From: Aureimonas sp. Leaf427
GTDB lineage: Bacteria > Pseudomonadota > Alphaproteobacteria > Rhizobiales > Rhizobiaceae
Assembly: GCF_001425485.1 (NCBI RefSeq)
Contig: NZ_LMQW01000034.1
Coordinates: 186,001 to 250,000, forward strand
DNA: 64,000 bases
Reading direction: 5' to 3'
Below, piece by piece: positions 42,567 through 58,044 of this stretch (position 1 is its first letter; the number at the start of each line of letters is the position of its first letter). The notes beneath the pieces are model-generated. The model was not told where the DNA came from. It made no database searches and saw nothing but the letters and a program-made list of their open reading frames with translations. Both the position numbers and the translations under genes were made by a program.

Positions 42567-42611
42567 TGGTGATCCCGACTGGATTTGAACCAGTGACCCT
42601 CAGATTAGGAA
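42567..42611 (-). other. attL: displaced 3' half of a tRNA-Arg gene
   Basis: On the minus strand this reads from the anticodon TTCCT through a variable region, a T arm (ACTGGTTCAAATCCAGT), the acceptor CGGGATC and CCA. The 17-base core 42595-42611 is identical to 59614-59630 in the intact tRNA-Arg(CCT). There is no 5' half, so it is the original end of the host gene pushed away by integration. Confidence 0.9.
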
Positions 42612-42792
42612 ATTGATACAAGGGTTCTGCGAGGAAGTGCGCCTAGCTGCGATAAACATCCACAAGCCATTGTCTTTCAGGCCTTTCAGCGTTTCGCGAT
42701 GCTCCGTAAGATGCGCTGAGAAGCGCAGAAGCGCGGGGGCGCTGTGCCCCTGACGTGCCCCCGCTTGATCGGGGGCACAGATTGGACACGCG

Positions 42793-44031
42793 ATGAAGCT
42801 GACGAACGATCTCCTTAAACGGGCTCTCCCGGAGCCAGGCAAGCGTCTTGAACTTCGGGACGACGACGAGCCCGGCTTGATCTTTCGTGTCACAGAGAAC
42901 GGCGCCCGCTCTTGGTCTGTCCGCTATCGCAGCGCCGCGGGTGAACAACGGCGGAAGGCGCTCGGTCCTTATCCTGCCGTGACGCTCTCTCGAGCCAGGG
43001 ATGAGGCCAGAAAGGTGAAAGGCGCCGTCGCTGGAGGTGCGGACGTCGTCGGCATCGATCGCGCCCACAAGGCTGCTGAAGCTGGCAAGCGCCTTCATCG
43101 GATTGGCGACCTTGCCGACGCTTATTTCGAGGACGCGGGGAGGGGGCTGCATAAGGCGAATGCCAAAGGCCCTAAGCGAGCCTCTACGTTGAAGGAAGAG
43201 CGTAGGATCTTCGATCGCTTCGTGGCGCCGGCTCTGGATGCAAAGGCAGTCCCGGAAATCAAACGCTCCGACATTCAAGCGCTCGTCTCGAAGGAGTCGC
43301 GCAAGTCTGCGGCGAACGGGCGACAGTGCCTCGCTGTTGTCCGGCAACTTCTCGGCTATGCCGTCCGTCGAGAGATCATTGAGACCAACCCGGCGCATGA
43401 TATCGCAGTCACGGCGTCGCAGCCGCGCGAGCGCGTCCTGTCGGACCAAGAGCTTCGCGCGTTCTGGCAGGCGTGCCTTGAGCCTCAGGAGGTGAAGGGG
43501 CTCGGGATATCGCAGGAGATGGGGCGAGCCCTTCAGATGGCCGCGGTGACGTTGCAGCGGCGTGGCGAGATCGTCGGCATGCGGTGGGCCGAGATCGATC
43601 GTGCGAAACGTGTCTGGACCATTCCCGGAACGCGGATGAAAGGAAAGCGCACGCACCTCGTCCCGCTCTCTGATCTCGCAATGTCCATCCTGGAGAGGTG
43701 CGAGGGGCAAAGCGAGTTCGTCTTCACGTCCGGGCGGACAGACTCACACATTGAGGCAGGCGCTTTTTCGCGTGCAATGAACCGGATGACCACAGCCCTC
43801 GAGATCAATGGGGCGACTCCTCACGACCTGCGCAGGACCGGGGCAACGAACATGACAAGCGAGCGGATCGGCCTTCCGCGCTTCATCGTTTCCCATGTCA
43901 TCGCGCATGCTGGTGACACGGGCGGGGCGGCGGCCGTGACGGGTCGGCACTACGATTTAAACGACTACCTACCGGAGAAGCGGAAGGCGCTGGAGGCTTG
44001 GGCGGTGCTTCTAAGTTCGATCGTGATTTGA
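42793..44031 (+). CDS. tyrosine-recombinase integrase (P4-like)
   Basis: A 412-residue integrase. The N-terminal DUF4102-like arm-binding domain (LTNDLLKRALPEPGKRLELRDDDEPGLIFRV, GPYPAVTLSRARDEA) is followed by a SAM-like core-binding domain and the catalytic domain. The catalytic set is Arg in QRRGEIVGMRW, Lys in RMKGKRTH, HDLRR, a late His in VIAHAG and Tyr in RHYDLNDY. It lies 180 bases from attL, as expected for an integrase directing insertion into tRNA-Arg. Confidence 0.93.
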   Translation: MKLTNDLLKRALPEPGKRLELRDDDEPGLIFRVTENGARSWSVRYRSAAGEQRRKALGPYPAVTLSRARDEARKVKGAVAGGADVVGIDRAHKAAEAGKRLHRIGDLADAYFEDAGRGLHKANAKGPKRASTLKEERRIFDRFVAPALDAKAVPEIKRSDIQALVSKESRKSAANGRQCLAVVRQLLGYAVRREIIETNPAHDIAVTASQPRERVLSDQELRAFWQACLEPQEVKGLGISQEMGRALQMAAVTLQRRGEIVGMRWAEIDRAKRVWTIPGTRMKGKRTHLVPLSDLAMSILERCEGQSEFVFTSGRTDSHIEAGAFSRAMNRMTTALEINGATPHDLRRTGATNMTSERIGLPRFIVSHVIAHAGDTGGAAAVTGRHYDLNDYLPEKRKALEAWAVLLSSIVI

Positions 44032-44082
44032 CCTAATATGGCTTGTTACGATTTATACAGGCAGTGAAAAAGGCGAGGTAAA

Positions 44083-44325
44083 ATGTCCGAAAACGATACG
44101 TTGAAGCGTGATGAGGCCATCGAGCACCTAAGAGCCGTTCGCGCGTACTTGGTTGAAGAAAGACGTGGCGCGGCTCGCAGTCTTGCAACAGATACCATGC
44201 TGCCGAACGTGATGGCGGACCGGGTGGTTAACTTCCAACGCATGATTGAGGCGGTAGACGCTGCAATCGAAGATGAAAAGACAGTCACAAGCGAGGCGAA
44301 AGTCTCACGGGTTCGTCCTACCTGA
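44083..44325 (+). CDS. small hypothetical cargo protein
   Basis: An 80-residue soluble protein, mainly helical (RDEAIEHLRAVRAYLVEERRGAARSL, RMIEAVDAAIEDEK). A GGCGAGG site ahead of ATG 44083 supports it. Composition is lower in GC than the host genes, like the next two genes. No domain recognised. Confidence 0.55.
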   Translation: MSENDTLKRDEAIEHLRAVRAYLVEERRGAARSLATDTMLPNVMADRVVNFQRMIEAVDAAIEDEKTVTSEAKVSRVRPT

Positions 44326-44361
44326 TTGAATCGTAAAAACCGCGATTGAAGGGCTCGGACA

Positions 44362-44592
44362 GTGGGAAACGACGTTACTTACTTCCCACGCTTCATGACG
44401 GATCATCAGCTTCGGACCTATTTCGGGCTGACAGAACGCGCGCTGGTCCGCCTGAACGCGATGCGCGATTTTCCAAAGCGCGACACGATCACGAACCGGC
44501 GCGATAGCCGCGCGGTCGATCTCTTCTTTGACAGGATGAGCGGCTTGGAGCCTCCCGCGCGAAATAGCGCTCCGAGCGTCGATCACTTTTAA
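44362..44592 (+). CDS. small HTH-like protein, possible excisionase
   Basis: A 76-residue protein starting at GTG 44362 with an AAGGG site. The middle (FMTDHQLRTYFGLTERALVRLNAMRDFPKRD, residues 11-41) looks like a helix-turn-helix, followed by RDSRAVDLFFDRM. Its place near the integrase would suit a recombination directionality factor, but AlpA at the other end is an alternative. Function is not established. Confidence 0.5.
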   Translation: MGNDVTYFPRFMTDHQLRTYFGLTERALVRLNAMRDFPKRDTITNRRDSRAVDLFFDRMSGLEPPARNSAPSVDHF

Positions 44593-44723
44593 GGCCTGCG
44601 CATCAGAAGCCGGCAGGCTGCAACGCCTATGTTGGCGGAGGGAAACGGGCGGTGGCTGACTGATCCTCCAATTGCACTCCCACACGCTTAACGATAGCTT
44701 GAGAAAGGAAAGGGAGACTGCCT

Positions 44724-45056
44724 ATGTCCGTGACTTTTATGACGAGCAATCCGAAAGCGCTGCTCGCGAAATTCAAAAAAGCTATTGATGAAAAAGACGT
44801 CGCAACGTGGTCGTACGACGGCGATGGCGACTTCACGCATGACACAGATCAGTGGCGGAGCAAGGCTTGGATGCGGCCCGAACTTTTATCGGATCGTCTC
44901 AATTTTTCTATTTTGGCACCCAAAGATGGCGGCATGACGAAGACAGTTTACGGCATCTATCACGGCAGACTGATAGAATGCTTCCTTTCTCACTTCGATG
45001 ATGCTTTCGTGAGTGGCGCTGCCACGGCTAAAGTCTCTGGGAAAGACTCTATTTAA
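44724..45056 (+). CDS. hypothetical cargo protein
   Basis: A 110-residue protein with a good ribosome site (GGAAAGGGAGA before ATG 44724). It is a compact globular protein by composition, with DGDGDFTHDTDQWRSKAWMRPEL and a strand-like LNFSILAPK plus GIYHGRLIECFLSHF. I know no family. It lies between the integrase side and the late operon end, a usual place for lysogenic-conversion or defence cargo. Confidence 0.6.
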   Translation: MSVTFMTSNPKALLAKFKKAIDEKDVATWSYDGDGDFTHDTDQWRSKAWMRPELLSDRLNFSILAPKDGGMTKTVYGIYHGRLIECFLSHFDDAFVSGAATAKVSGKDSI

Positions 45057-45134
45057 GCTCACTTCTTGGGTAATCTGCCGCCGGATGATGCCAAAGCGAA
45101 GCATCAAGCCGGCGGCGGTCGCAAGACAGGATGA

Positions 45135-45908
45135 TCAGGCGTCGAAACGCTCCGCTCGTCGTCTGGCGGCACGGTTCAAGACGGCAACCTGTCCGCCTTG
45201 AGTGTTCGCCGAAATGAGTCGCCCCAGAGCGGATGACGACGCCGGCCGCGTGGCGGTCAGATCTTCCGCCCATGTGCTGACGACCGTTTGCGAAACCCCT
45301 TCCGCCGTGATCAGCGTCTCGAGGATCGCGCCGCCAGGGATCAACGGCCCCTCGAACGTCTGAGGGACTTCAGCGAGGGAGGCGCGCTGCGCTTGCATCA
45401 ACGGAACGCCGATCGTCCGCTTGTCGAAGCCGGGCCGGCTGGCCTGTCCGACGGCGCCGTAGATCATCAGCAGAGCGGCTTCGCCCAACGGCGGGGCGAA
45501 ATCGCTTTCCACGGGCCGCCAAACGCATACGCCGTCCTCGAGGCTGAAGCCAAGACACTTTGGGCACCCGTCCGTCTCAGACCATCCGGTGATCCAGAAG
45601 CGGCGGGGGAGGGTGCCGAGCGTCGGCGCGAACGGGGCAACGACGGTGAAGACCTCGTCGACCAAGGCGCCGTCGCTGGTGATGATGTCGTCGAAGGTCG
45701 TGCCGATCTCCGCGGCCAGATGCGCGATCTCCTTCGCCAAGAACTCAGCGATGAACGGGAAACCGCAAACCGAGACAACCGCTTTCATGCCCTCGATCGG
45801 GATCGTCTTGCGATGGTGCTCGATGATCTCGCCGGCCATGTTGAACACGGCCGAGTCCGTCCAGATGAGCGCGCGATTCGGCCCGAGGATGAGGTTGCAG
45901 GCGCTCAA
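45135..45908 (-). CDS. Ntn-hydrolase-like protein 2 (proteasome-beta/HslV pattern)
   Basis: A 257-residue protein. After loss of the initiator Met, Ser would be residue 1, Asp (WTDSAV) residue 17 and Lys (HHRKTIPI) residue 33, exactly the spacing of the catalytic Thr1, Asp17 and Lys33 of proteasome beta subunits. The following strand and turn (AVVSVCGFPFIAEFLAKEI) and the ITGWSETDGCPKCLGFSLEDG region also fit that fold. A TTG at 45908 starts it, overlapping the upstream stop (TTGA). It is a diverged paralogue of the gene before it. Catalytic activity is inferred, not shown. Confidence 0.6.
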   Translation of the reverse strand: MSACNLILGPNRALIWTDSAVFNMAGEIIEHHRKTIPIEGMKAVVSVCGFPFIAEFLAKEIAHLAAEIGTTFDDIITSDGALVDEVFTVVAPFAPTLGTLPRRFWITGWSETDGCPKCLGFSLEDGVCVWRPVESDFAPPLGEAALLMIYGAVGQASRPGFDKRTIGVPLMQAQRASLAEVPQTFEGPLIPGGAILETLITAEGVSQTVVSTWAEDLTATRPASSSALGRLISANTQGGQVAVLNRAARRRAERFDA

Positions 45909-46672
45909 GCGACCGCTCCACGACGAAGCGCGTCCTGCCGGCGCCGCTCTCTCCGGTTCACCGCTGGCATCGCAACGACAATGCCGGCCGAAGTCGCGGG
46001 CAGCGGACCGGGCTCGATCGTCTCTCCGACGCGGTCATCCCAGCGCTTGAGGATGCGATCGGTGATGCCGTGCCGATCGACCGTGATCAGCATGACGTGA
46101 CCGCCGATGAGGAGCCGGCCGGACTTGCCCTCGTCCATGCCGTCAGACGGCTGCCGACGCTGTACCTCCATCAGGGCAATGCCGTGTTGTACCGGGTCGA
46201 ACTCTTCCCGCGTCGGTTCACCGATCTGCCGCAAGAGTGACGCCTTCGCCCCGGATCGAAGCTTGGGGTGATGCAGCCAGGCGAGGTCCACGATGAAGGA
46301 CGGCTCGCCCTCGCGGTTCGTGAAGTGGACACTCTTCGGGCGCCGATCGCGCTTCGACCATCCGACGACCATTGCACAGAGCCGACCGGAACCGAGCTCA
46401 TCGATGGTACGCTGAAGGTCGCTCCAGTGCTCCGCGAAGAACGCCTCGCCCCGATCCGCGAAGTCGTCGATGTCGCGGAATCCGCGGCGGATGATCGTCG
46501 CCATGATCTGGGGCGCGTTCGCCATGCCGGTACAGGTGACGACGACGTTCGCTTCAGAGACGACGACGTGCTTGGGCCCGAGGGAGAGCAGAACGCCATC
46601 CTCGTCGTAGCATGCGGCATCCTGAAGGATGATCGCACGGTGGCCCTGATGGTAGAAGTTGAGAGCGCTCAT
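45905..46672 (-). CDS. Ntn-hydrolase-like protein 1 (proteasome-beta/HslV pattern)
   Basis: A 255-residue protein beginning MSALNFYHQ. With Ser2 as residue 1, Asp (ILQDAACY) is 17 and Lys (LGPKHVVV) is 33, matching the proteasome-beta catalytic spacing. Later segments VVVTCTGMANAPQIMATIIRRG and MVVGWSKRDRRPKSVHFTNREG align with the same places in its neighbour. A charged C-terminal tail (NRRERRRQDALRRG) is extra and is echoed by RAARRRAERF in the neighbour. ATGA overlap with the tape-measure gene couples them. Confidence 0.6.
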   Translation of the reverse strand: MSALNFYHQGHRAIILQDAACYDEDGVLLSLGPKHVVVSEANVVVTCTGMANAPQIMATIIRRGFRDIDDFADRGEAFFAEHWSDLQRTIDELGSGRLCAMVVGWSKRDRRPKSVHFTNREGEPSFIVDLAWLHHPKLRSGAKASLLRQIGEPTREEFDPVQHGIALMEVQRRQPSDGMDEGKSGRLLIGGHVMLITVDRHGITDRILKRWDDRVGETIEPGPLPATSAGIVVAMPAVNRRERRRQDALRRGAVA

Positions 46673-48603
46673 CGGTCCGTTTCCTGAAGCTCGAGGATTT
46701 CGTAATCGGTATCGAGACGGGCAATATCGCCCTGGCTCTTTCCCATGGTCTGCATGTCCAGCATCAGCGACGAGGTGGCGTCCTGCTGCGCCTCCATTCG
46801 CTGACGAAGGGATTCGCCTTCTTGGAAGCGAGACTGAGCGAGGGAGAGACTGCGAACCTCCTCGATCCGCCGCCGCTTCTCCTCCTCCGTCATGATCGCG
46901 CCGGAGAGGTCCAAGCGGGTGCGCATGGCGTCGATCTCAGCACGCCCCGCAGCAGACCGGACGCCGATGCCGCGGAGGTCGAGTTCATGCCCGGCACGCA
47001 CGACCTCTTCGACGCGAGCAAACTCCTGCAGGCCGGCTTGCCGCTGGCGTTCGATCTCCATCAATTCGCCGTAGGACCGGGCGAGACCAGACGCCTGCTC
47101 GGCTTCCGCGTTGATCCGGTCGGCATCGGTGCGGCGATCGGGAACGAACTCGCGTAGGCGGCCCATGGACTCGCTAAGCTGCTTTCGCGCCATCCGCTCG
47201 GTGCTGGTCGAAAGGGAGTCAATCTGCCGTTGAGCGTCAGCGCTCGCGCGTGCGAGTTCGATCAGTTCGGCCCCCATCTTTTGCAAGGCCGCGTTCGCCG
47301 GGCTGAGATTGGCGATGCCGGCGACCTCCTCGACGAAGGAAGCCGCGTCGGCCGTTCCATCCCTCAGACCCTTGCGGAGTTTCAGGAGCGGTTCGGAAAA
47401 GGCCTCATAGCCAGCGGCAACGCGGAAGGCGTCGCGCCCCTCGCCAGTGCTGGCAGCGCCGCGGGCGGAGCCGCCCAGCACGACGCCGCTGCCGGAGCCG
47501 AAGGCGTCGAAGAGGGACGCGCGAGCGGACGTCTGGAGTTCCGCTTCACTGCGACGAAGGGCGAACGAACGCGCGGCCGCGGAGCTATATTCCTCGCTGG
47601 CTCTGAGCGCGACGCCGTACTCGTCCGCAATCTCGCCAATGATCCGGCGATGGTTCTCCATCGCCTCGTTGAGCGGCTTCACGGCGCTATCGGTGCGCGT
47701 CGCGAAGTAGATGGCCGCGCTGCCTGCCGCCAGGAGCCCGGCCGCGACGGCCGTCACCGGCGTCACCATTCCGGCGATGCCGGTCCCGATCGCGGCAAGA
47801 CTTCCCTTCACGCCGCCGGGCCCGTCCCCAAGCGCCTGGACGACCTGTCCGCCCTGCGAGGCCAGGATCTGGAACGGGCTCGCACCCATCGCCAGCATCG
47901 TTGCGACGTCGTTCACCTGATAGCCGAGGTTCGCCATCTGGTTCGAGGTGAGCTTCGTCGTCGCACCGACGTCGGCCATGGTTTTCTCGGCCAGCGCCAT
48001 GCGCGCACCGACCATCGCCTCCGCATCGGCAAGCTCACGGGTCGTGATCACCCCTCCCGCCGCGAGATCCCGGTATGTCGCGAGCTCGGCATTCAACTGC
48101 CGCTGAGCAGCGCTCAAGGGGTCGAGCTGCGATCGTAACCGCTCGGCCGCGCGCTCAGCCTCTTCAAAGACGGATGCAGACGCGCGGGCCGGGTTTGCAG
48201 CCTCTGCGCCGATGTTGAAGCGCTTCGAGATGTCCAGCGCGGCCCCGCTGTCCGAACCCGTCGCGCGGCCGGCATTCTGAAGGTTCGACTGAATCTTCGC
48301 GAGCTGTCGCGCGTACTCTTCGCCCTTGACGATGCCGGCGGACATGGCGCTGTCCAGCGCCTTCAGGTCTGTGTGAAACTGCTTCGTTGCTCGCCCCATG
48401 CCTTCGAGACGCGCCTGCAGAGCACGATAGCCGCGCTCCGCGCCGCCCAGGCGAACCGTCCCTTCAGCGACGACCTTGTAGGCGCCCTGGCTGGCTTCTG
48501 CGACGAGCTGCTGAGATCGTGCGATGGATTTGGCGACGCGCTCGAGCTCGCTGCCGCCCTCCTGGCGATAGCGGACAGTCAGGGTTTTGACGGTATTGCT
48601 CAT
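46669..48603 (-). CDS. phage tail length tape measure protein
   Basis: A 644-residue protein (start at 48603, MSNTVKTLTV, overlapping the upstream stop by four bases; 48609 is an alternative). Long coiled-coil stretches surround the tape-measure signature QMANLGYQVNDVATMLAMGASPFQILASQGGQVVQA near residue 220. A hydrophobic segment (VTPVTAVAAGLLAAGSAAIYF) follows, as in siphovirus tape measures. It is the only tail gene seen, and no tail tube, chaperone or baseplate genes accompany it. Short for a typical tape measure. Confidence 0.85.
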   Translation of the reverse strand: MSNTVKTLTVRYRQEGGSELERVAKSIARSQQLVAEASQGAYKVVAEGTVRLGGAERGYRALQARLEGMGRATKQFHTDLKALDSAMSAGIVKGEEYARQLAKIQSNLQNAGRATGSDSGAALDISKRFNIGAEAANPARASASVFEEAERAAERLRSQLDPLSAAQRQLNAELATYRDLAAGGVITTRELADAEAMVGARMALAEKTMADVGATTKLTSNQMANLGYQVNDVATMLAMGASPFQILASQGGQVVQALGDGPGGVKGSLAAIGTGIAGMVTPVTAVAAGLLAAGSAAIYFATRTDSAVKPLNEAMENHRRIIGEIADEYGVALRASEEYSSAAARSFALRRSEAELQTSARASLFDAFGSGSGVVLGGSARGAASTGEGRDAFRVAAGYEAFSEPLLKLRKGLRDGTADAASFVEEVAGIANLSPANAALQKMGAELIELARASADAQRQIDSLSTSTERMARKQLSESMGRLREFVPDRRTDADRINAEAEQASGLARSYGELMEIERQRQAGLQEFARVEEVVRAGHELDLRGIGVRSAAGRAEIDAMRTRLDLSGAIMTEEEKRRRIEEVRSLSLAQSRFQEGESLRQRMEAQQDATSSLMLDMQTMGKSQGDIARLDTDYEILELQETDR

Positions 48604-49649
48604 GAGCATGCCTCGCAGTTGAACGCGGAGGCGGCCTTCGCCTTGTCGGCCTTGCTCGCGTACGGGTTACAAGCAACGGAACAGAAGCTCCGCTTCTGTG
48701 AGGGGAAGTCGGGCTGGAAGGTTTGTCCGCAGGTCTTGCAGGACAGCACCGGCCGCGCCTCGCGCAAACCGGCGCGGGCTGACGCGCTGCAAGCGGTCGA
48801 GCAAAACTTGGAGAGACCTCGCTTCTCGGAAAAGCGCGGCCGGAAGATCGCGCGGCAAACGCCACAGGACACCTCGCGATCGGAGCGAGCTGTCGCGGTG
48901 TAGCAATCGAGCGAGCAGTATTTCGGGTTCTTCGTGCCTGGTCGGGCGGTGAAGGTCTTGCCGCAGCCGACGCACGATACCTCCCAGGATCGCCGCTGGC
49001 TCTCGCTAACGCAGCTGGTCGAGCAGAACCGAGCGTCGAGCCGGGAGGACAGGAACCGCTTGTTGCATTGTTCGCAGTTCCGGGCCCTTTCCTCGAGCGT
49101 CTTGGCCGAGCGCTCAGCGCATCGGGTCAGATACTCCGCGAGCGACACCTGCTCACCAAACTCGGATGCCTTCTTCCGGTAGGCGTACTGTCCGCATTCG
49201 AAGCTGCAATACTTCACCGGGTTGCCGGCATGGGTCTTCCGATCCGGCGGAATGCGCCCGTTGCAGTGGGCGCAGAAAGTCCGCAGCGTTCCCACGCTCG
49301 AGACGAAGTCGGGTTGCCCATCAGCCCAGGAGGGCCGGGTCGCGCCAAGCTCCTTCAGGGCCGCCGCTACGATCTCAGCCGCGCAAGAATCCGCGTCCTT
49401 CCACGCCCAACCTCTCTCGATCAGGCCGATGCGAAGGCCATGACGAGATGCGCCTTCGAACGCGAAGACGGTCGGATCGCCGGCGGCCAGGATTACCTTC
49501 GCCTGCCCCACGAGGTGAATGAAGCGCTTGGTGTTCAGCTTGCGATACTTGACCTTGGCCGAGACCGCCGCGCGACGGGCTTTCCGCGCGCGATCCTTGC
49601 CAAGCTCCTGCCGCAGGTAGGTCGCGAATTCCGGCGTGATGTGGAGCAT
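48600..49649 (-). CDS. multi-zinc-finger protein between connector and tape measure
   Basis: A 349-residue protein. The first 120 residues form a unique domain (VFAFEGASRHGLRIGLIERGWAWKDADS, RPSWADGQPDF). Then come five C-x2-C...C-x3-C fingers: CAHC/CSFEC, CEQC/CSTSC, CVGC/CSLDC, CGVC/CSTAC and CKTC/CSVAC, and a last half finger CEACS before the stop. Such repeats usually bind Zn and often DNA, as in phage HNH homing enzymes; no HNH motif is seen. It starts one base inside the connector stop. A truncated homing-type DNA-binding region fused to a phage protein is one explanation. Confidence 0.6.
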   Translation of the reverse strand: MLHITPEFATYLRQELGKDRARKARRAAVSAKVKYRKLNTKRFIHLVGQAKVILAAGDPTVFAFEGASRHGLRIGLIERGWAWKDADSCAAEIVAAALKELGATRPSWADGQPDFVSSVGTLRTFCAHCNGRIPPDRKTHAGNPVKYCSFECGQYAYRKKASEFGEQVSLAEYLTRCAERSAKTLEERARNCEQCNKRFLSSRLDARFCSTSCVSESQRRSWEVSCVGCGKTFTARPGTKNPKYCSLDCYTATARSDREVSCGVCRAIFRPRFSEKRGLSKFCSTACSASARAGLREARPVLSCKTCGQTFQPDFPSQKRSFCSVACNPYASKADKAKAASAFNCEACS

Positions 49650-50266
49650 CAGAAGATCCTCCGATAATCGGCAAGCAGGCCTGCCGCTTCAGGATCCGCG
49701 AGGCCGGCGCCGGCGGACGGAACCCAGAACGATGTCGCGCCAACCCCCTCCGTCGTTTCGCTCTTGATGAGCGCGTCACGACCGCGGATGGAGAGGTAGG
49801 CAGCGACGAGCTTGATGGCGGCGCGTTCAACGGCTGGCGGCAGCGTGGATGGAGGAGCGTCGGCATTGTCCGTGGGCAGGACATAGCCTGCGGCATAGGT
49901 GACAGAGACCCGGTCTCCCCACCCTACGCGCCAACCGTCGTCATCGATGCGAAAGAGTAAGCCGGTTGCGGGATCGTACTGGACGAAGCGAGGCTCGATT
50001 ATCTCGGACCCTCGACGAACTTCGTCGAAGGACGTGACCGCCGATCGACCGAGGAGAACGGCACCGCTCGCGGACGGTCCCTCGAAAGTCTCACGGACGG
50101 TCTCGGTCGCGAACGGCCGGCGGCAGTGATCGACGATCGCGCTGGAGGCGTGCTCGATCAGGATGCGCACCGTCGCATCATCGCCCACGCCGAACCCCAG
50201 GAGAGCCCGAGCGCGTTCGATCGTGGTCAGCTTGGTGTCCGTTGCGGGCGTGATGACGGTGATCAT
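49649..50266 (-). CDS. phage head-tail connector protein (gp6-like)
   Basis: A 205-residue protein with the usual helical start (TTIERARALLGFGVGDDATVRILIEHASSAIVDHCRRPF), a strand-rich middle and WVPSAGAGLADPEAAGLLADYRRIF at the end. This pattern is that of HK97 gp6/phi-like connectors. ATG 50266 has an AAGGAG site eight bases ahead; a GTG at 50275 is also open. Function: ring below the portal. Confidence 0.75.
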   Translation of the reverse strand: MITVITPATDTKLTTIERARALLGFGVGDDATVRILIEHASSAIVDHCRRPFATETVRETFEGPSASGAVLLGRSAVTSFDEVRRGSEIIEPRFVQYDPATGLLFRIDDDGWRVGWGDRVSVTYAAGYVLPTDNADAPPSTLPPAVERAAIKLVAAYLSIRGRDALIKSETTEGVGATSFWVPSAGAGLADPEAAGLLADYRRIF

Positions 50267-50271
50267 GGTGA

Positions 50272-50520
50272 TCACTCCTTCGGCGTGTCGGGAAGCGGCT
50301 TGCGTACGGAGCTCTTCGCCGCCTTGTTCGAAGGTTCGACAGCCATTTTGTTTTCGGGCGTGGGAGCGCTCTTCACGCGGCGCGCAAGTCCGGAAGCCAC
50401 GAGCTGCTCAGCTCGCGTCGCGGTAACTGGAAACACGTCGCCGATGTCGCAGACGACGGTCTGCGGGGTATGGTGGACGTTGAATGGCTTCAGCGCCTCA
50501 ATCTCGACTTCGCTGGTCAT
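50272..50520 (-). CDS. small phage protein of the head operon
   Basis: An 82-residue protein with a short beta-type N-terminal domain (EALKPFNVHHTPQTVVCDIGDVFPVTATRAEQLVASGLA), as found in small head proteins that follow the capsid gene in rhizobial phages, and a basic disordered tail. Its stop overlaps the GTG alternative of the connector gene. Exact role not known. Confidence 0.6.
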   Translation of the reverse strand: MTSEVEIEALKPFNVHHTPQTVVCDIGDVFPVTATRAEQLVASGLARRVKSAPTPENKMAVEPSNKAAKSSVRKPLPDTPKE

Positions 50521-50580
50521 GGTTCTGATCTCCGGTTCGGGAAAGGTGAGCCGGGCTGTCGGGCGCCCGGCTCCTTGTCG

Positions 50581-51846
50581 TCAGCCAGCGTTGCCGGCGA
50601 CGAGGTTGCCGTAGACGAAGGACTCGGGCCGAGTGACAGCGAGCGCGACGCGCTCCTCGGCCCGGATCGTCACCGCGTTCTTGATGAAGTTGTCGCGGTC
50701 CTCGGTGGAGACCTGAACGTTCGCATCCTCGCGATCGAAGAGCTGGGCGCCCATGTTGAAGGCGCCCGTCAGGAACTTGCCTGGCGCGATGGCATCGCTG
50801 TCGACGACCGGAAGGCCCCAGATGCGCTTCTCGACGACGCCACGCGGATCGCCGATCACGTAGCGACCATCGCCATCCTTCAGCGTCTCGATCTCCGCCC
50901 AATCGATCGGGTTCATCACCACAGCCGTCGCGCGGTAAAGCGCGATACGCACCTGAAGGATGGCACGGCGGATACGGTCGATCTTCGTATCGCTCGGAAG
51001 CGAGTAGGTTCCGAAGGCGAACGCCGTTGACTGAGGCACGATGCCGAGGAGGTTCTGCCCGGTGCCGTCGCCCCCGAGGATCTGAGCTTCCTCGACCATC
51101 GCGAGCCCGTATCGCAGCCGGCCGTCGATGTAGGACTGCAGAAGCGGGATATCGTCGAGGACCTGCTTCGAGGCATGGATCCAGTGCGCGAGCGTGCGGA
51201 CGGGCGTCGAGAGGAGATCGAACGAGAGATCAGACTGTGGCTTCAACGCGAGTTCGGCGACCGGCGCGGCCATGTTCTGGAAACCGGTCTCCTTCACGTA
51301 CTCGATGGCATTTGAGTCGGTCCGGCCGGGCATCATCAAGTCACGGATGGTGAAGGTGCGTTCGCCGGGCGTGACGATGTATGGCAGGCGCTGCGGGCGG
51401 ATCGCGTCACCCACGCCACCGGTCCCGGTCGTCGCACTGGTGACGCTGGTCACGGCCTTGACCGCGATGCGCGCCGTGCCGCCGCCGCGCGTCTTCATGC
51501 CCTTCCACTCGTCGCTCTCAGTGAAGGTGTTGCCGAGCGTCTTGACCGCCGGGCCGTCGCCGCCGCCGCGACGCGCAAGCTTCTGCTCCACCGCCAGAAG
51601 CTGGGTCTGGAGATCGGTGCCGGCCTTGGCGAGGCTGGTCAGCGCCGCCTTCGTGTCCGCGAGCATCTGCCCGTGGTCCTTGATCTCCGCGGCCGCCTTG
51701 TCGGCGAAGGCCTTGATCTCGGCATCCCGGGTCGCGAGAGCGTCGCGAAGGGCACGGATTTCGAGCTGGTCGTCGGCGGCGTCGCCGGCGGCCTTCGTGT
51801 GGAACGCGCGATGGGCCGCGGTCAGCTTGGTATCGTGGATCGACAT
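50581..51846 (-). CDS. HK97-family major capsid protein
   Basis: A 421-residue major capsid protein. The first 110 residues are a charged coiled-coil delta domain (ALRDALATRDAEIKAFADKAAAEIKDHGQMLADTK) that the protease would remove. The HK97 core follows with RTLAHWIHASKQVLDDIPLLQSYIDGRL, NPIDWAEIETLKDGDGRYV and WGLPVVDSDAIAPGKFLTGAF. The start at 51846 has an AAGGA site. It follows the prohead protease by 12 bases. Confidence 0.93.
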   Translation of the reverse strand: MSIHDTKLTAAHRAFHTKAAGDAADDQLEIRALRDALATRDAEIKAFADKAAAEIKDHGQMLADTKAALTSLAKAGTDLQTQLLAVEQKLARRGGGDGPAVKTLGNTFTESDEWKGMKTRGGGTARIAVKAVTSVTSATTGTGGVGDAIRPQRLPYIVTPGERTFTIRDLMMPGRTDSNAIEYVKETGFQNMAAPVAELALKPQSDLSFDLLSTPVRTLAHWIHASKQVLDDIPLLQSYIDGRLRYGLAMVEEAQILGGDGTGQNLLGIVPQSTAFAFGTYSLPSDTKIDRIRRAILQVRIALYRATAVVMNPIDWAEIETLKDGDGRYVIGDPRGVVEKRIWGLPVVDSDAIAPGKFLTGAFNMGAQLFDREDANVQVSTEDRDNFIKNAVTIRAEERVALAVTRPESFVYGNLVAGNAG

Positions 51847-51858
51847 GGTCAGGGTCCT

Positions 51859-52557
51859 TCAGAAAGTCGGGAGGGTGAGAGGGGTGCTCAGTGCCTTCAG
51901 GAGGTCGCTGACCTCGCCGGCGCTGCTGCTGCCGGGGCCGCGCGCGGCCCAGGCGTTGAAACCGACATCAGCGATCGTGTCGGCATCGGAGCGCGCAAAG
52001 CCTCGATCGCTGAGGAGCGCCTTGAACTCGCGGTCGCTGATCCGTTCGCCTGCCGCGAGCTTTGCCTTGATCGTGTCGACCCGGGCCTCATCGTTCGCGG
52101 GATTGGTGACGACGGAGACCTCGACGAGATCGACCCGCTTCAGGGTCCGAATGCGCGTCTTCTCGTCGAAGCTGTCCTCGCGCGTGTAGAAGCCGATGGA
52201 GAGTCCCGTAATGGCGCCGGCCTTCATGCCGCGATGAGCGACACGGGCGTTCGGCGCCTCGTCGGTCCACAGTTCCCCTTCGAGAAAGAGGCCGTGATCG
52301 TCTTCGCGCATCACGTCCCATTGCCCGATCGGCTCATCGGAGCGGTGCTGCCAAAGGATCGGAAGCGTCCGGCCTTTGCCCTTCGTGTCGGCAATGCTCG
52401 CCGCGAAGGCGCCAGGCGCAACGATCTCGCGATAGCTGTCGACCACGCCCCAGACGCTGCCATAGCCAGAGAAGTGGCCGGACGCGTCCGGCTTGGCCTT
52501 GATGCAGAGGTCGAAGCTCCGATGCTGCGTGATCGAGTCCTTGCGCTCCATGGTCAT
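51859..52557 (-). CDS. HK97-family prohead protease
   Basis: A 232-residue U35-type serine protease: GYGSVWGVVDSYREIVAPGAFAASI near residue 32, the catalytic His in PILWQHRSDEPIG and Ser in KAGAITGLSIGFYTRE, then VDLVEVSVVTNPAN. It matures the capsid. ATG 52557 overlaps the portal stop (ATGA). Length is normal for the family. Confidence 0.92.
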   Translation of the reverse strand: MTMERKDSITQHRSFDLCIKAKPDASGHFSGYGSVWGVVDSYREIVAPGAFAASIADTKGKGRTLPILWQHRSDEPIGQWDVMREDDHGLFLEGELWTDEAPNARVAHRGMKAGAITGLSIGFYTREDSFDEKTRIRTLKRVDLVEVSVVTNPANDEARVDTIKAKLAAGERISDREFKALLSDRGFARSDADTIADVGFNAWAARGPGSSSAGEVSDLLKALSTPLTLPTF

Positions 52558-53807
52558 TCTCCTGGGATCGGTTCGCCGGGCGCCGGCTGGACGCGCGCTG
52601 GCTTGCGGCCGGCCTGATCGAGCGGCACGAGGGTCGAGTTGACGAGGTGGACGTCTCCGCCAGGGAAGCGCGGCAGGTTCTCGCGATCGGCGATCTGGTT
52701 CGGCGTAATGGCCGCGACCTGCATCAGCTTCGAATACATCTCGGCGCGTCCGGCGCTGTCGGCGCGAAGGAGGCCTTCGACGGTGAATTCAGCGTAGAGC
52801 GAGGCGCGTTCCGCTGGCGCGATCAAGGAGCGTTTGAGCGCCTGCTCGATCCGCGTCAGGTACGGACGAAGACCGAGCGTGAGCCAACCGAGCATGATCT
52901 GTTCGACGCCGGCTCCAAACATGGTCTGTCCGGCCGAGCTGTGCCCGACGAGCACAGGCGGCACGCCGAACCATCGGCAAATCTCCTCGATGTGGAAGGC
53001 ACGGGTCGCCAGCATCTCGGCATCCCGAGGCGGCATGTTCACGTCCTGCCATTTGAACCCGGCCGCTCCCTCCATCAGCAGCGTCTTGCCGGCGTTCTCT
53101 GATCCGGTGATCGGCTCGATGAGAGCCGTCTTCGCCTGCTGCCGCTGTTCCGGCGTCAGGAGCTTGTCGCCCTCGTAGGTGATGATTCCACCCGGCCGCA
53201 TGCCATTGGCGAAGGTCCGAGCGGAGGCCTCGTCCGTCGCGATCGCCGCGCCCAAAGTCTGCCGAGCATGCCCAACGGGAGAAAGGCCGAGATCACCGCC
53301 AAGACCGAAGCCACGGACGTGCATCAGTTCGCCATCACCGAACTCGATCACACCGCGCGGGTCCGAGTACCGGTAACGCAGCGCATCGGACTGGTCGCGG
53401 TAGACCATCATCAAGTCCGGCCGCAGCAAGGTCATCGAGACGACGCCGCCGGAAACGCCACGGCCGAGCTCCACATATGCGTTGCCCCAGATCAGCAGGT
53501 GAGCGACCAGACCCTCCCAGAACTCCACCGACGTTTGATCGGCGTTCGGCATGTCATGGATGAGCGGATAGAGCGGGTGACCGCTCGCCACGTCGCGGCC
53601 ACCGTCGGCACGCCGCACGTAGAGCGAGAACGGAAGGGTCGCGATCGTCTGGGAGATCAGACGGACGCACGCCCAGAACGTCGCGATCTGCATCGCCGTG
53701 TCCGGCGTGACGTTCTTTCCCGCCCAGGACTCCGTCCCGAAGTAGGTCCGCCAGATGCGGCTTTCCTTCAGGCCGAAGCGGCGCGCGAGGGTCGTGAGCG
53801 CGTTCAT
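52554..53807 (-). CDS. phage portal protein
   Basis: A 417-residue portal of the HK97 family. Key parts are TFWACVRLISQTIATLPFSLYVR near residue 45, the GNAYVELGR segment, SPVGHARQTLGAAIATD, then RAFHIEEICRWFGVPPVLVGHSSAGQ in the stem-clip region. The start at 53807 overlaps the terminase stop by four bases. The portal is the DNA entry ring and packaging-motor base. Confidence 0.93.
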   Translation of the reverse strand: MNALTTLARRFGLKESRIWRTYFGTESWAGKNVTPDTAMQIATFWACVRLISQTIATLPFSLYVRRADGGRDVASGHPLYPLIHDMPNADQTSVEFWEGLVAHLLIWGNAYVELGRGVSGGVVSMTLLRPDLMMVYRDQSDALRYRYSDPRGVIEFGDGELMHVRGFGLGGDLGLSPVGHARQTLGAAIATDEASARTFANGMRPGGIITYEGDKLLTPEQRQQAKTALIEPITGSENAGKTLLMEGAAGFKWQDVNMPPRDAEMLATRAFHIEEICRWFGVPPVLVGHSSAGQTMFGAGVEQIMLGWLTLGLRPYLTRIEQALKRSLIAPAERASLYAEFTVEGLLRADSAGRAEMYSKLMQVAAITPNQIADRENLPRFPGGDVHLVNSTLVPLDQAGRKPARVQPAPGEPIPGE

Positions 53808-55465
53808 GCCGTCACCGCATTGTTGAGGAAGTCGTCGAGATCGATCGGAGCGGCCGGCTGGAAGCGCTTCGCGAGGCCAAGCGCCATCACGAGCGTCACG
53901 GCCGGATCGACGCGGACGGGTCCGCGTCCATTCGAGCGATCCTTCGCGATCTTCAGATTGCCGGCAGGATCGCTGTCCATGATGGCGCCGGCGACCGCTG
54001 CGGTGAGCACAGGATGGCCGCCGTGACGGACACGACCGGTCAGAGCCAGTTCGGCGAACCAATCCACCGCCGGGCCCATCTCCTTGAAGCCCTGGCCGAA
54101 CGGCTCGAGCGGGACCGGGAAATTGCCGTCGATCTCCTCGAGATCCTGTTTAAAGTCGTCGACCCGCCACCGGTCGAAGCCGAGCACCACAATGTTGAAC
54201 TCGGCCGCAAGCGCGACGAGCTGCGCAGCGACGAAGCCATAGCGAATCGTCGGCCCCGGCACCGCGATCATGTGGCCGGCCTTGATCCAAGCGCGAAAAC
54301 GATCCTGTTCGGACGGCCGGCGGACACCCAGCTGGCCTTCCGGCGTCCAGCACCATTGCAGAACGTCAAAGCCGGGCTCTTCAGCGTCATCCGGAAAGAC
54401 GAGCGTCAGGCTGGTGAGGTCGTGCTTGCCGGAAAGATCCAGCGCGGCGAAACACGTGCGGCCGGCCAGCTCGCTCCGATCCACAGTGACGTTTCCGCGA
54501 CGCCAGACGGCTGCCGTCACGATGCGATTTTCCTCGCGCGCGTCGACGCGCTGATTCAGACGAAGGTTTCGAAACGATGCCTCGAAGGCCGGGATGCGCC
54601 GGGCGCGCGCCGCGGCCTCGCGCATCTCCTGCAGCGAGACGTATTTTCCAAGGGCCGGATTGCAGGCGAGCCAAGTGGCTTCGGCGAAGGGATCGGCCTC
54701 CGGCGGTGCGCAGATGAGCTGGACGAAGATGCTCGGATCGGCGCCGCTGAGACCATCATCGATGAGCTGCGAGAGCGGGTGATCGTCGTCGGGCGCCTGC
54801 GTCGAAATGATGAGGGCAAGCGCTTCGCGGCGCTTTCCAAGACCATTCATCAGGTTGTCGAGAAGCTCCCGATCGCGAGCCTGAGCAAGCTCGTCGTACA
54901 CAAAAAGCGACGGCGCGAGACCGTGGGCTCGACGCGCGTCGGCTGAAAGGGCTTCGTAGACCGATCCCTTACCGATACCGTCCAGCACCTCGATCTTCTT
55001 CAGGAAGCGCTGCACGTTCACGCGCGCGGCAAACTCCGGAATGCCGAGCAGCATCGCCTCGCACTCGTTGAAGATGATGGCGGCCTGCTGACGATCGATC
55101 GCGCCAGAGTAGACCTCGCCACGGGCTTCGCTCTCCGGTCCAAGCAGGTGACAGAGGACAAGACCAGCCGCGAGGCCTGTCTTGCCATTGCCCTTTGGTG
55201 CGCTCGACACGCCGATCCGGCGCCGACGCATGCCCTTGGCGTCCAGATCGCCGTAGATCTGCAGGATGAAATCCCGCTGCCCGGGAAGGAGCTTCATCCG
55301 CTTCCCCGCCAGCGGACCCTTCGTGATCGGCAGGAACTGCAGAAAGGCGATCACGCGTTCAGCGCGGCCGAGGCCCTTCTTCTGCCAAGGCAGCGTCCGC
55401 CGGCGGGCGGGAAGAGCCTCCCGAGCCAGCTTGAGGCGAGATGCGCCAGGTCCGCGGAGGCCCAT
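53804..55465 (-). CDS. terL: terminase large subunit
   Basis: A 553-residue packaging motor and nuclease. Walker A is SSAPKGNGKTGLAAG (near residue 88), Walker B FVYDELAQARDREL (near 190), and STQAPDDDHP follows as the coupling motif. The nuclease begins FAALDLSGKHD with the first metal Asp. The N-terminal LPGQRDFILQIYGD segment is common to this type. Overlaps the preceding small gene by one base. Confidence 0.94.
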   Translation of the reverse strand: MGLRGPGASRLKLAREALPARRRTLPWQKKGLGRAERVIAFLQFLPITKGPLAGKRMKLLPGQRDFILQIYGDLDAKGMRRRRIGVSSAPKGNGKTGLAAGLVLCHLLGPESEARGEVYSGAIDRQQAAIIFNECEAMLLGIPEFAARVNVQRFLKKIEVLDGIGKGSVYEALSADARRAHGLAPSLFVYDELAQARDRELLDNLMNGLGKRREALALIISTQAPDDDHPLSQLIDDGLSGADPSIFVQLICAPPEADPFAEATWLACNPALGKYVSLQEMREAAARARRIPAFEASFRNLRLNQRVDAREENRIVTAAVWRRGNVTVDRSELAGRTCFAALDLSGKHDLTSLTLVFPDDAEEPGFDVLQWCWTPEGQLGVRRPSEQDRFRAWIKAGHMIAVPGPTIRYGFVAAQLVALAAEFNIVVLGFDRWRVDDFKQDLEEIDGNFPVPLEPFGQGFKEMGPAVDWFAELALTGRVRHGGHPVLTAAVAGAIMDSDPAGNLKIAKDRSNGRGPVRVDPAVTLVMALGLAKRFQPAAPIDLDDFLNNAVTA

Positions 55466-55707
55466 CAGAAAGCCCTCCGCGAGCGACCGAGATCGAAATC
55501 AGCGGCAACTAACTCTGAAGAGAGGTACCCCAACCGGTCTTGATCCCCTTGGGGTCCAGCTTTCGACCCCCCCGCCTTGCCCGACGCGATGGAGACAGCC
55601 AAGGAGGCTCCATGGCGGGCCTCTTCGATCCGAGGACGCGAGGCTGCATTCGTCGAGCGAACGGCGTCCAAGGTTTTCCAGCGGTCAGAGCGGAGGGTGC
55701 GAGACAT
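55465..55707 (-). CDS. small protein before terL, possible terminase small subunit
   Basis: An 80-residue basic protein (MSRTLRSDRWKTLDAVRSTN) in the place where a small terminase subunit is usually encoded. Its stop overlaps the terL ATG (TGATG), which supports translation, but I see no ribosome site and no clear small-terminase HTH. Low-confidence function. Confidence 0.45.
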   Translation of the reverse strand: MSRTLRSDRWKTLDAVRSTNAASRPRIEEARHGASLAVSIASGKAGGSKAGPQGDQDRLGYLSSELVAADFDLGRSRRAF

Positions 55708-55712
55708 GACGA

Positions 55713-56108
55713 TCAGAGCGCCCAGCCCGTGTCGAGGATCGCGAACTTCTGCCCAGGCCGAACGGCGATATCGGCATGGCTGGGAATGTTGTTCACGAGC
55801 GGCGGGTCAATGACCGCGCGAGGAACCGCTTCGACCGCGACATTCGAGGTGCCGAAGGCCGGTGTCTCGGTGCCTTCCCAGATGGCGACGTAGCTCCAGC
55901 CAGCGCCGCTCTTGGCGACGTCGTCCACATAGCGGCCGCGAAGAGAGACGATGAGATCACAGCCCTTGGGCGCGGCCGGAACGGTGATGACCTCGCTCAT
56001 GGCCGAGCTCGTGGCGGTCAGCTTGCCGCTGGCGACGATCTTCGTGAACGCGGCGTTGTCGGTGTATCCTCGCAGGTGAGCGAAGATCGTGTAGCGGGCA
56101 GCACTCAT
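55713..56108 (-). CDS. phage structural-type hypothetical protein
   Basis: A 131-residue beta-rich protein (SGKLTATSSAMSEVITVP, GCDLIVSLRGRYVDDV, GWSYVAIWEGTETPAFG) without a known domain. It may be a head decoration or minor structural protein by position between HNH and the packaging genes. The ATG at 56108 overlaps the HNH stop (ATGA). Confidence 0.65.
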   Translation of the reverse strand: MSAARYTIFAHLRGYTDNAAFTKIVASGKLTATSSAMSEVITVPAAPKGCDLIVSLRGRYVDDVAKSGAGWSYVAIWEGTETPAFGTSNVAVEAVPRAVIDPPLVNNIPSHADIAVRPGQKFAILDTGWAL

Positions 56109-56428
56109 CGTGCGTCTCCTCGATTGAAAGGATGGTTGGGATCGGTCGGGAGGCCGTCGGCACCAACGCGGGCGGCATAGCCACGCGCCTCGTCGCCCTG
56201 CTTCTCTCCGCTGTGATGCGGGGTGCAGAGGGACTGCCAGTTGGTGCGATCCCAGAAGAGGCGCTGATCGCCCCTGTGGGGGATGATGTGGTCGACGATG
56301 GTAGCGGGAGCGATGCGGCCTTCGCGGGAGCAGGCGACGCAATGAGGGTGCGAGCGCAGATGGCCGGCGCGGGCTTTGCGCCACGCGGTGCCGTAACCCC
56401 GTTCGGAGGCGGACGCGCGCGCGCTCAA
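56105..56428 (-). CDS. phage HNH endonuclease
   Basis: A 107-residue HNH nuclease of the packaging-associated type. The fold is clear: a CVAC pair, the catalytic segment IVDHIIPHRGDQRLFWDRTNWQSLC and PHHSGEK. A TTG at 56428 starts it, overlapping the preceding stop (TTGA). HNH proteins of this class work with TerL in DNA cutting during HK97-like packaging. A basic N terminus precedes the fold. Confidence 0.85.
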   Translation of the reverse strand: MSARASASERGYGTAWRKARAGHLRSHPHCVACSREGRIAPATIVDHIIPHRGDQRLFWDRTNWQSLCTPHHSGEKQGDEARGYAARVGADGLPTDPNHPFNRGDAR

Positions 56429-56760
56429 CCGAGCACCCGAAGATCGTAGCGGACGACCGTTTCGCCGATGACGACGGGCGTTGCCGTGGTGATGGTGCGG
56501 GTCTGGCCCTGACGAATGATCTCGTCGCCAGCGACCGGAGGTGCGGGCCAAGCGGCAGCCAGGATCTCTGTCGGGGAAAGGACGACGACGGTTGCGTTCT
56601 GGTCTACGCCGGCAACCAGCTCTTCAGGCGTGGCGCCGCGGCAGAAGGCAAGCACGTTGACGCTAAGGGCGGGAGCACCGCGAAGCACCCGGCGCAACGT
56701 GACCCGTTCGCCTTTTTTGGCGAGCTGTCGGTCCAGTGCGGCTGTCGTGGGGTGGGTCAA
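56425..56760 (-). CDS. phage head closure/head-tail joining-like protein
   Basis: A 111-residue beta-barrel-type protein, LDRQLAKKGERVTLRRV at the start and VVVLSPTEILAAAWPAPPVAGDEII and VVRYDLRVLG later, a pattern seen in head closure (gp16/Hc1-like) proteins of rhizobial phages. It is the first gene of the structural operon and lies upstream of terL, not after the connector. An 8-bp perfect hairpin (GATGCCTC loop GAGGCATC, 56765-56786) sits just ahead of the start. Confidence 0.6.
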   Translation of the reverse strand: MTHPTTAALDRQLAKKGERVTLRRVLRGAPALSVNVLAFCRGATPEELVAGVDQNATVVVLSPTEILAAAWPAPPVAGDEIIRQGQTRTITTATPVVIGETVVRYDLRVLG

Positions 56761-56826
56761 GTCCGATGCCTCTCGAATGAGGCATCAGAGGTAGCGTGAA
56801 GGCGAACCGCCCGTCTTTACGGAGGC

Positions 56827-57036
56827 TTAGGCTGCCTTGGGGTTCGTTGGGCTGCGCCGGTTTTCAGGGCGCTGCATCCATGCGGTGAGCTCGCCTTCGA
56901 AGGCATAGAGCCGGCCGCCGGACTTGTAGATCGGAGCATCGGTCTCGCGCGCGAGAGCGTAAACTCCATCGTTCCCGAGGCGGAGAAAGCGCCCGATGGT
57001 GCCGGCCGTCCAGAGGATGTCGAGAGGCGCCGTCAT
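56827..57036 (-). CDS. small helix-turn-helix (excisionase-like) protein
   Basis: A 69-residue protein with an MerR/Xis-like winged fold: ILWTAGTIGRFLRLGNDGVYALARETDAPIYKSGGRLYAFEGELTAWMQ (residues 7-55). It starts at 57036, overlapping the preceding stop (ATGA). Such proteins serve as excisionases or small repressors; which is not clear. It is the last gene before the structural operon. Confidence 0.7.
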   Translation of the reverse strand: MTAPLDILWTAGTIGRFLRLGNDGVYALARETDAPIYKSGGRLYAFEGELTAWMQRPENRRSPTNPKAA

Positions 57037-57395
57037 CGGGATCCTCCCGCGCACCCCGTCTTGAACTCCTCCACACGATGGCCCTGCTCTCGCAGGTCGG
57101 CAACGAGTTCCGCAAGCGCCTCGTCCGACGTGCCCTCCGCAAAGCGCGATCGACGGTCGTTCGCGATCTGCGTGACGATCCAACTCGTGAACGGATGCGT
57201 GTTGTAAGGCGGATCGAGGTAGCTCGTCACGAAGTGGAACTCATATCGAAATTTCACCCCGTTGGAAAAGCGAGGCGCGCAGCTGGCGCGCTTTCTGGTC
57301 TTTGTCGGAATGAAGGTCGTCCGCCCGCGCTTCTTGATCGTGGTGCCCGCCCAGGCTGCTTTCACGCGGCGCGCCGTCTCGTTCTCGTCGCTCAT
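57033..57395 (-). CDS. phage hypothetical protein
   Basis: A 120-residue basic protein: MSDENETARRVKAAWAGTTIKKRGRTTFIPTKTRKRASC, then an aromatic middle (KFRYEFHFVTSYLDPPYNTHPFTSW). No family known to me. It is coupled at both ends by ATGA overlaps with its neighbours, which supports its reality. Confidence 0.65.
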   Translation of the reverse strand: MSDENETARRVKAAWAGTTIKKRGRTTFIPTKTRKRASCAPRFSNGVKFRYEFHFVTSYLDPPYNTHPFTSWIVTQIANDRRSRFAEGTSDEALAELVADLREQGHRVEEFKTGCAGGSR

Positions 57396-57694
57396 GACGC
57401 ACCCCCGTCCGGCTGAGCGCGGACGCCTTCATAGTCAATCCGGTTCATCTCATCCGCGACGGCCTGCTCGAACGCTAGGCGTTGCGCCGTGGCGCGCTCC
57501 TGACTGACGCCAACCTTGAGGAACTGGTTCTCGATGCCGCCGAAAATCTTGGAGCGATAATGCGCATCCAGCTTCGGCTTAGATGTCGCGTCGAGGAGCA
57601 GTAAGGCGGTCTGCCGTACCTTCTCCAGACGGCGCGCGGACGGGAATGGCACGATCTCGCACCGCGGTGTCCGGCGGTCTTCACGCGTCGACAT
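57392..57694 (-). CDS. DUF6074-like small phage protein
   Basis: A 100-residue protein with the pattern CEIVPFPSARRLEKVRQTALLLLDA at residues 12-36, similar to DUF6074 proteins of alphaproteobacterial phages. Function unknown. ATG 57694 is used; its stop overlaps the next gene. Confidence 0.65.
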   Translation of the reverse strand: MSTREDRRTPRCEIVPFPSARRLEKVRQTALLLLDATSKPKLDAHYRSKIFGGIENQFLKVGVSQERATAQRLAFEQAVADEMNRIDYEGVRAQPDGGAS

Positions 57695-57890: not shown

Positions 57891-58044
57891 TCGTTCGATG
57901 GGTAGCGAGCGAAGCGAGGTGCCCAGCGGACGAGCGATGAAGACGATCGAACGGGTCGAGGGCAAAACCCTCGCGGGGTTTGGGGCAGCGCCCCGATCTT
58001 TTGCCGGCGCCGCGCGATCGAGCCGCTTAGATCCTGTCAGAGGC

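Follow-up and report, generated by a model that had tools for sequence, protein, structure and literature searches.

Two overlapping genes in the window (the whole stretch of 64,000 nucleotides of Aureimonas sp. Leaf427 DNA that was analysed) encode proteins A and B, whose membership of the proteasome-like Ntn superfamily is supported by their predicted fold and by a Ser/Thr1-Asp17-Lys33 set. We put at roughly 55 % the probability that A and B are propeptide-less Ser/Thr Ntn peptidases dedicated to tail morphogenesis, which would process the tape-measure protein or a tail-tip neighbour. Phage proteasome homologues are already known, and the new part is the recurrent tail context in which the members of this family are found.

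Two coupled genes in a 17.0-kb integrated element

Gene A (46672..45905, minus strand) starts with ATG and codes for a putative proteasome-like Ntn-hydrolase homologue of 255 aa, and gene B (45908..45135, minus strand, 257 aa), a diverged tandem copy of A, starts with TTG, the earliest start codon possible in its frame. Aligned along their whole length, the two proteins share 22 % identity (E=1e-12), and by this alignment the genes are homologous, that is, paralogues. The sequence-only reading had placed both ORFs on the minus strand, coupled by ATGA and TTGA overlaps; both are present, with the 4-nt ATGA shared by the tape-measure gene and A at 46669-46672 and the TTGA shared by A and B at 45905-45908. 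The exact proteasome-beta spacing that it had described for the pair was also found in each protein, in which Ser2, Asp18 and Lys34 become Ser1, Asp17 and Lys33 once Met is removed. Gly49 of A is a candidate for the oxyanion Gly.

The pair lies in an element of ~17.0 kb (42595..59630) integrated in tRNA-Arg(CCT). The element is bounded by a 17-bp direct repeat located at the anticodon part of this tRNA, with the left attachment-site core at 42595..42611, preceded by a sequence like a tRNA 3' half, and the right copy at 59614..59630, inside the tRNA-Arg(CCT) gene (59586-59662, minus strand). An integrase is encoded on the plus strand (42793..44031, 412 aa; phrog_1, 1.8e-54), and the minus strand carries genes for the terminase large subunit (53804..55465, 553 aa; phrog_9, 3.8e-114), portal protein (52554..54062 for the ORF as listed; phrog_12, 2.7e-113), head maturation protease (51859..52557, 232 aa; phrog_80, 1.8e-59), major capsid protein (50581..51846, 421 aa; phrog_10, 9.9e-81), head-tail adaptor (49649..50275, 208 aa; phrog_442, 2.9e-22), a Cys-rich HNH-like protein with repeated CxxC (48600..49649, 349 aa; phrog_1271, HNH endonuclease, 1.6e-16) and the tail tape-measure protein (46669..48609, 646 aa; Pfam TMP_2, 1.5e-20; phrog_16823, 4e-46). 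The portal match begins at residue 106, so the real start of this gene is probably further downstream. An Arc-like regulator and small genes are also present. The many CxxC repeats of the HNH-like protein are zinc-finger-like, and its gene, between those of the adaptor and the tape measure, occupies a slot inside the late operon where neck or tail genes would be expected. Among 18 further window ORFs scanned against PHROGs, none matched a tube, tip or lysis family. No HslU-like ATPase was seen in the element, in which all called ORFs longer than 225 aa are otherwise assigned and none of the 18 further ORFs matched an ATPase family of this type in PHROGs.

Elements similar to that of the window were found at L062-L065 and L076. 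In L062 and L063, IMG/VR records of 16.7 and 18.8 kb that are possibly fragments, genes for replication, the head and the tape measure are combined in different orders. L062 further carries genes for a tail terminator and for tail completion and gives a short match to a 'tail fiber' family, and L064 has a TAC/tail-tube-type gene (PF11836). The content of the window element resembles that given for cf-PICIs in the part of PMC10690885 cited here, with its own integrase, HNH, terminase, portal, protease, capsid and connector genes within ~17 kb and no lysis or tail-tip family matched; unlike cf-PICIs, it has a tape-measure gene, and its relatives also have tail terminator or TAC-type genes. Judged from this gene content, it is possibly a cf-PICI-like satellite and not a complete phage, which limits the description of the pair as phage-encoded.

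A divergent family: relatives, conserved residues and predicted fold

When used as a query, A recovered remote relatives only. Among 297 genomes of the same order, six, counting the host, gave a match at E<=0.001; one of these (L008 in G282, E 4.4e-4) was treated as a chance match because the family profile did not recover it. A seven-sequence profile searched in 385 genomes of the class matched five, the host again being one, and within the genus the host has a member, as does one of the five further genomes. When viral and genome contigs were scanned, IMG/VR contigs and Methylobacterium bullatum, Tardiphaga robiniae, Mesorhizobium helmanticense and Devosia elaeis were added. The seven-sequence profile also matched a third member in the host genome itself (contig C23, L025:14295-15053), coupled to the 1126-aa tape measure of another prophage-like region. 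N-terminally truncated remnants of the family lie at L045:6965-7390, directly behind a tape measure, and at L049:6998-7381. The plasmid search returned a single 50-residue piece with 46 % identity to the L042 member (E 0.005), near 550783-550932 of the Rhizobium sp. BG4 plasmid NZ_CP044127.1 (hit H9) in a stretch with no listed gene, possibly a further remnant.

Annotated resources gave little for these sequences. Pfam, NCBIfam and phmmer against the PDB yielded nothing related to A and no proteasome match, Pfam gave no proteasome match for the 11 members scanned, and B matched neither a PHROG nor a Pfam family. Among 50,697 phage records, tblastn with six members found nothing significant (best E 0.8; cut-off 0.01 for A, B and the L006 and L004 members, 5 for the L035 and L042 members, and also 10 for A), and a viral scan with the L006 member gave zero relatives. 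The members have diverged too far to be detected from single sequences, by phmmer of A against the PDB or by Pfam, and this counts against the tail-peptidase reading. A matched phrog_13702 over residues 1-213 (E=6.4e-7), and weaker matches, with E up to 1, were seen in 7 of 9 relatives scanned. We take phrog_13702 to be the family of these proteasome-like proteins; its label 'terminase large subunit' is probably a mis-annotation, because the match is to an Ntn-like protein from residue 1 and not to a terminase, and we suggest that the label misleads annotation. Of 299 genomes searched in the phylum, the phrog_13702 profile matched five at 0.01, one of which (G813) was dropped as a probable chance match because it lies in an ORF that, read by eye, is flagellin-like. 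The same profile also matched one of 14 control genomes, that of Bacillus subtilis, and a distant member from the proteobacterial genome G747 (L031:1264-1878) has no recognised phage neighbours; both observations count against the tail-peptidase reading.

Conservation was assessed in an alignment of 24 distinct intact members of 204-266 aa, with 14-26 % identity to A. Loci merged as copies were L001-L003, L009, L011, L012, L019, L022 and L029 (window locus), L004, L013 and L033 (L038), L005 and L017 together with L010 (the two L014 copies), L023 (L026), L007 and L016 (L040), L024 (L025), L020 (L027), L021 (L028) and L036 (L043). Left out were a near-copy, 97 % like L037 (L006, L015, L018 and L030), the truncated L045 and L049, and L076, which was found afterwards; the last keeps Ser2 and Asp18, has its Lys three residues later, and its match crosses a TAG near the C-terminal end. 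Position 2 was Ser in 15 and Thr in 9 of the 24 members and no other residue, and D18, K34, G49, R172, G190 and G191 were invariant. With Met1, these make 7 invariant columns among 174 well-filled ones, and the naive probability that D18, K34 and G49 would all fall among the six others is 2.4e-5 when the relatedness of the rows is ignored. The start was set by alignment within a longer ORF in five members (L035, L037, L041, the first L043 copy and the second L044 copy), so the invariance of Met1 is partly chosen, with D18, K34 and G49 unaffected. Rather than varying freely among homologues, Ser/Thr2, Asp18 and Lys34 were thus fixed in 24/24, a pattern that in this alignment exceeds chance, and the interchange of Ser and Thr at position 2 is the behaviour expected of a nucleophile. 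Gly49, position 48 in mature numbering, corresponds by alignment to the oxyanion-hole Gly47. In the close pair formed by L037 of Methylobacterium bullatum and genome G117, dN was 0.017 and dS 0.47, which indicates strong purifying selection.

Asp166 and Ser169 are assisting residues of 20S proteasome beta subunits. The family columns aligned with them, in a register taken from the GG match of the family profile to beta subunits, were not conserved, column 186 never being D and column 189 being I, V, A or P and never S in the 24 members. This, together with the lack of an ATPase partner gene among the window ORFs scanned, counts against the tail-peptidase reading and would suit a structural derivative, in which a ring would serve as a part of the tail tip or adaptor and the catalytic residues would be kept only for folding or self-processing. 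HslV is a hexamer, and tail tube rings are likewise hexamers; the fold and the position in a tail operon would also agree with such a derivative. A position 2 restricted to Ser or Thr and the fixation of D18, K34 and G49 in all 24 members at 14-26 % identity are nevertheless more than a structural role would be expected to require. Proteasome alpha subunits lack this catalytic set, which also counts against a structural derivative. These subunits are catalytically inactive, as noted in the part of PMC8665760 cited here. We consider a structural derivative unlikely.

The tree of the 24 members was poorly resolved, with 2 of 21 inner branches strongly supported and long branches meeting. B, the second copy, is apparently diverging faster than A. 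In two other tandem pairs, the second copies (L043:7869-8543 and L044:7887-8555) sit on branches far longer than those of the first copies, themselves close sisters in the tree, paralleling B versus A. The second slot of tandem pairs may evolve faster or be exchanged.

AlphaFold2 models predicted an alpha-beta-beta-alpha Ntn sandwich for both A (10 sequences; pLDDT 79.3, pTM 0.75) and B (17 sequences; pLDDT 75.1, pTM 0.74), in keeping with the fold that the sequence-only reading had expected. Compared with the PDB by Foldseek, as that reading had proposed, both models matched proteasome subunits best (E 5.5e-8 for A and 5.2e-8 for B), and the best 50 PDB rows of Foldseek and of VIA for each model were proteasome entries, some of the Foldseek rows for B possibly being alpha chains. 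The best VIA alignments covered 182 residues for A (Z 15.3, rmsd 3.4) and 181 residues for B (Z 16.2, rmsd 3.2), and many rows, such as 1iru_L, begin with residue 2 of the model aligned to residue 1 of the chain. A profile of the 24 members searched against PDB chains gave proteasome beta as the best match (E 1.7e-4) and HslV at 0.018, with Ser2 placed on Thr1 and the GG region of the family on that of the beta subunits; some designed helical proteins were interspersed among the profile matches, from E 0.055 upwards. Comparison of the family with HslV of relatives by hhalign gave E 9.2e-4 in the right register, with a probability of only 22.6 %, and a capsid alignment used as a control gave 0.47. 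The modest PDB profile matches and the low HslV probability weigh against the tail-peptidase reading. Among viral predicted structures, seven matches were obtained at E<=0.001, two of them named proteasome beta or HslV; the mere occurrence of proteasome-like proteins in phages is therefore no novelty.

The models also bear on whether A and B could be ligases or transpeptidases that join or anchor tail proteins instead of degrading them. PMC8665760 describes connectase, a proteasome-like homologue without a propeptide, as a monomeric ligase, and this precedent, the single-gene format with variable loops and the lack of a visible ATPase partner would agree with a connectase-like activity. In the secondary structure of the models of A and B, strands 3 and 4 are not separated by a two-helix insertion of the connectase type, and nothing else points to ligation, making this alternative very improbable.

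Tail-gene context and proposed function

The place after the tape-measure gene claimed for the pair is true in the window and recurs in relatives. A same-strand tape-measure gene lies directly upstream of the member gene in 14/24 (window A, L025, L027, L028, one L014 copy, L039, L040, L041, L042, L046, L047, L048 and the first copies of L043 and L044); all 14 neighbours match at least one PHROG tape-measure family, the best match of that in L047 being a family of unknown function, and 10 of the 14 overlap the member gene by 4 nt. Second tandem copies in three elements (window B, L043 and L044) are among the ten members not directly behind a tape measure. The L035, L037 and L038 genes adjoin a gene for a protein of the J-N-terminal type (central tail fibre J in PHROGs), the L026 gene precedes one whose product is similar to the C-terminal portion of a tape measure, the second L014 copy lies ~4 kb away from the first, and the L034 gene is at a contig edge ahead of genes that by eye resemble terminase genes. 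Pfam Lambda_tail_I was matched above the cut-off by the neighbour in L037 and in its near-copy L006; the L035 and L038 neighbours, for which the scanned ORFs run out of frame into the Ntn gene, gave no Lambda_tail_I match. L076, from the same genus, again has a J-type neighbour. These J/Lambda_tail_I-like neighbours lie at L035:6475-7260, L037:8632-9108, L038:7526-8293 and L076:9473-9946, and the published family description assigns such proteins a ubiquitin-like fold. The open-licence PMC literature searched yielded no description of a proteasome-like protein in a tail operon, nor of a tandem pair of such proteins. The earlier remark that no such pair was known needs qualifying, because phage proteasome homologues are described in PMC8665760.

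In the tail-peptidase reading, A and B would be divergent proteasome-beta/HslV-like Ntn hydrolases made without a propeptide, so that removal of Met1 by the host methionine aminopeptidase would free the Ser/Thr nucleophile at once. This nucleophile would be activated by Lys33 and Asp17, with assistance from the main chain at Gly49, which is invariant. Translated just after the tape-measure gene and coupled to it, or beside a small tail-tip J/Lambda_tail_I-like gene, the peptidase would process the protein encoded by its neighbour while the tail is assembled, thereby replacing lambda gpK, to which it is unrelated, and B would probably pair with A or take a second substrate. We infer Met removal, enzymatic activity, substrate and oligomeric state alike, the tail-protein substrate because of the coupling to the tape measure or the adjacency of a J/TAPI-like gene. 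This argument for the substrate is one of gene order, and it is weakened by the 10/24 members whose gene does not immediately follow that of a tape measure.

The gene order would also suit a cargo hydrolase that degrades host or helper-phage proteins, in takeover or competition, and that sits behind the tape measure merely as the end of the operon. The gene closes the late module in the window, L043 and L044, and the Pseudomonas prophage AH14a has a 156-aa 'Proteasome subunit beta' before its terminase, according to the part of PMC4936722 cited here. Same-strand late genes nevertheless follow the member gene in L046, L048, L034 and L037 (tested for the terminase of L048, as L062, and for Lambda_tail_I of L037, and by eye for the others), and L046 and L048 keep the tape-measure neighbour though the surrounding head genes are rearranged. 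We therefore regard a cargo role as rather improbable.

A further reading, which we consider doubtful, concerns small capsid-encoding integrative elements of alphaproteobacteria. Such satellites would carry a two-part tail cassette, composed of a short tape measure or a J/TAPI-like protein of ubiquitin fold plus one or two proteasome-like peptidases, with which they would remake or commandeer the tails of helper phages by proteolysis. If true, this would be, as far as our searches show, the first case in which an enzyme of the proteasome type has a definite task in building virions, and a prokaryotic instance of a proteasome-like peptidase paired with a ubiquitin-like protein for a purpose other than protein turnover. 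One divergent group of proteasome homologues now has a recurrent and testable context, its translational coupling to the tape measure, and a proteasome-like candidate protease beside the ruler gene offers a concrete system for asking who cuts tape-measure proteins and why.

Comparison with known systems

The HslU ATPase gene adjoins that of HslV. Like HslV (ClpQ), the members combine the predicted fold with the S/T1-D17-K33 register and show weak profile similarity; unlike it, they have no HslU-like ATPase visible in the element, and their N-terminus begins directly with Met-Ser/Thr. An ordinary HslV-like gene is found elsewhere in the host genome (G000:C50). As for 20S beta subunits, the best VIA matches of the A model are 20S chains, in many of which chain residue 1 is covered by Ser2; unlike these subunits, A shows 8-13 % identity in its VIA rows, has no propeptide and lacks equivalents of Asp166 and Ser169.

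In lambda, the gpK peptidase is encoded between the tape measure and TAPI. As with gpK (TAPK, JAB + NlpC/P60) beside gpI (TAPI), a peptidase gene adjoins tape-measure or tail-tip genes, and some member loci adjoin a Lambda_tail_I or J-N-terminal type protein; unlike gpK, the members have an unrelated fold and gave no JAB or NlpC match. In the parts of the sources cited here, the tape-measure proteins of lambda and T5 are cleaved in tail morphogenesis (PMC10038345; PMC1796659), and the JAB/NlpC peptidase TAPK of lambdoid phages flanks the Ub-like TAPI, which it is proposed to process (PMC1779556). The genes of the members occupy a slot comparable to that of TAPK and encode predicted peptidases of unrelated fold.

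Fuchs, Alva and Lupas (2021; PMC8665760) catalogued proteasome-like homologues, including PPH, RPC, DPH, AAH and others, and in the part cited here they report 22 new groups of proteasome homologues, with PPH and AAH occurring in phages and PPH, RPC and DPH called proteobacterial. The members share with the homologues described there the proteasome fold, Thr/Ser1-Asp17-Lys33, the oxyanion Gly and the absence of a propeptide. PPH has ~140 aa, and PPH and RPC have no helix H2 (PMC8665760, in the part cited), whereas the members have 204-266 aa and the H1/H2 region of the models is helical (A: 53-64 and 68-92; B: 51-68, 72-77 and 81-93). By length and by helix H2 in the models, the members do not fit PPH as described in print, and they may belong to the DPH or RPC clusters, of which WP_074989469.1 (DPH) and WP_140207863 (RPC) are representatives. 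An HslV query matched thirteen phage records at 48-63 % identity, which we read as true HslV and not as PPH sequences. For the groups of Fuchs et al., no genomic context suggestive of function is reported in the part of PMC8665760 cited here, whereas a tail context recurs for the members of the present family.
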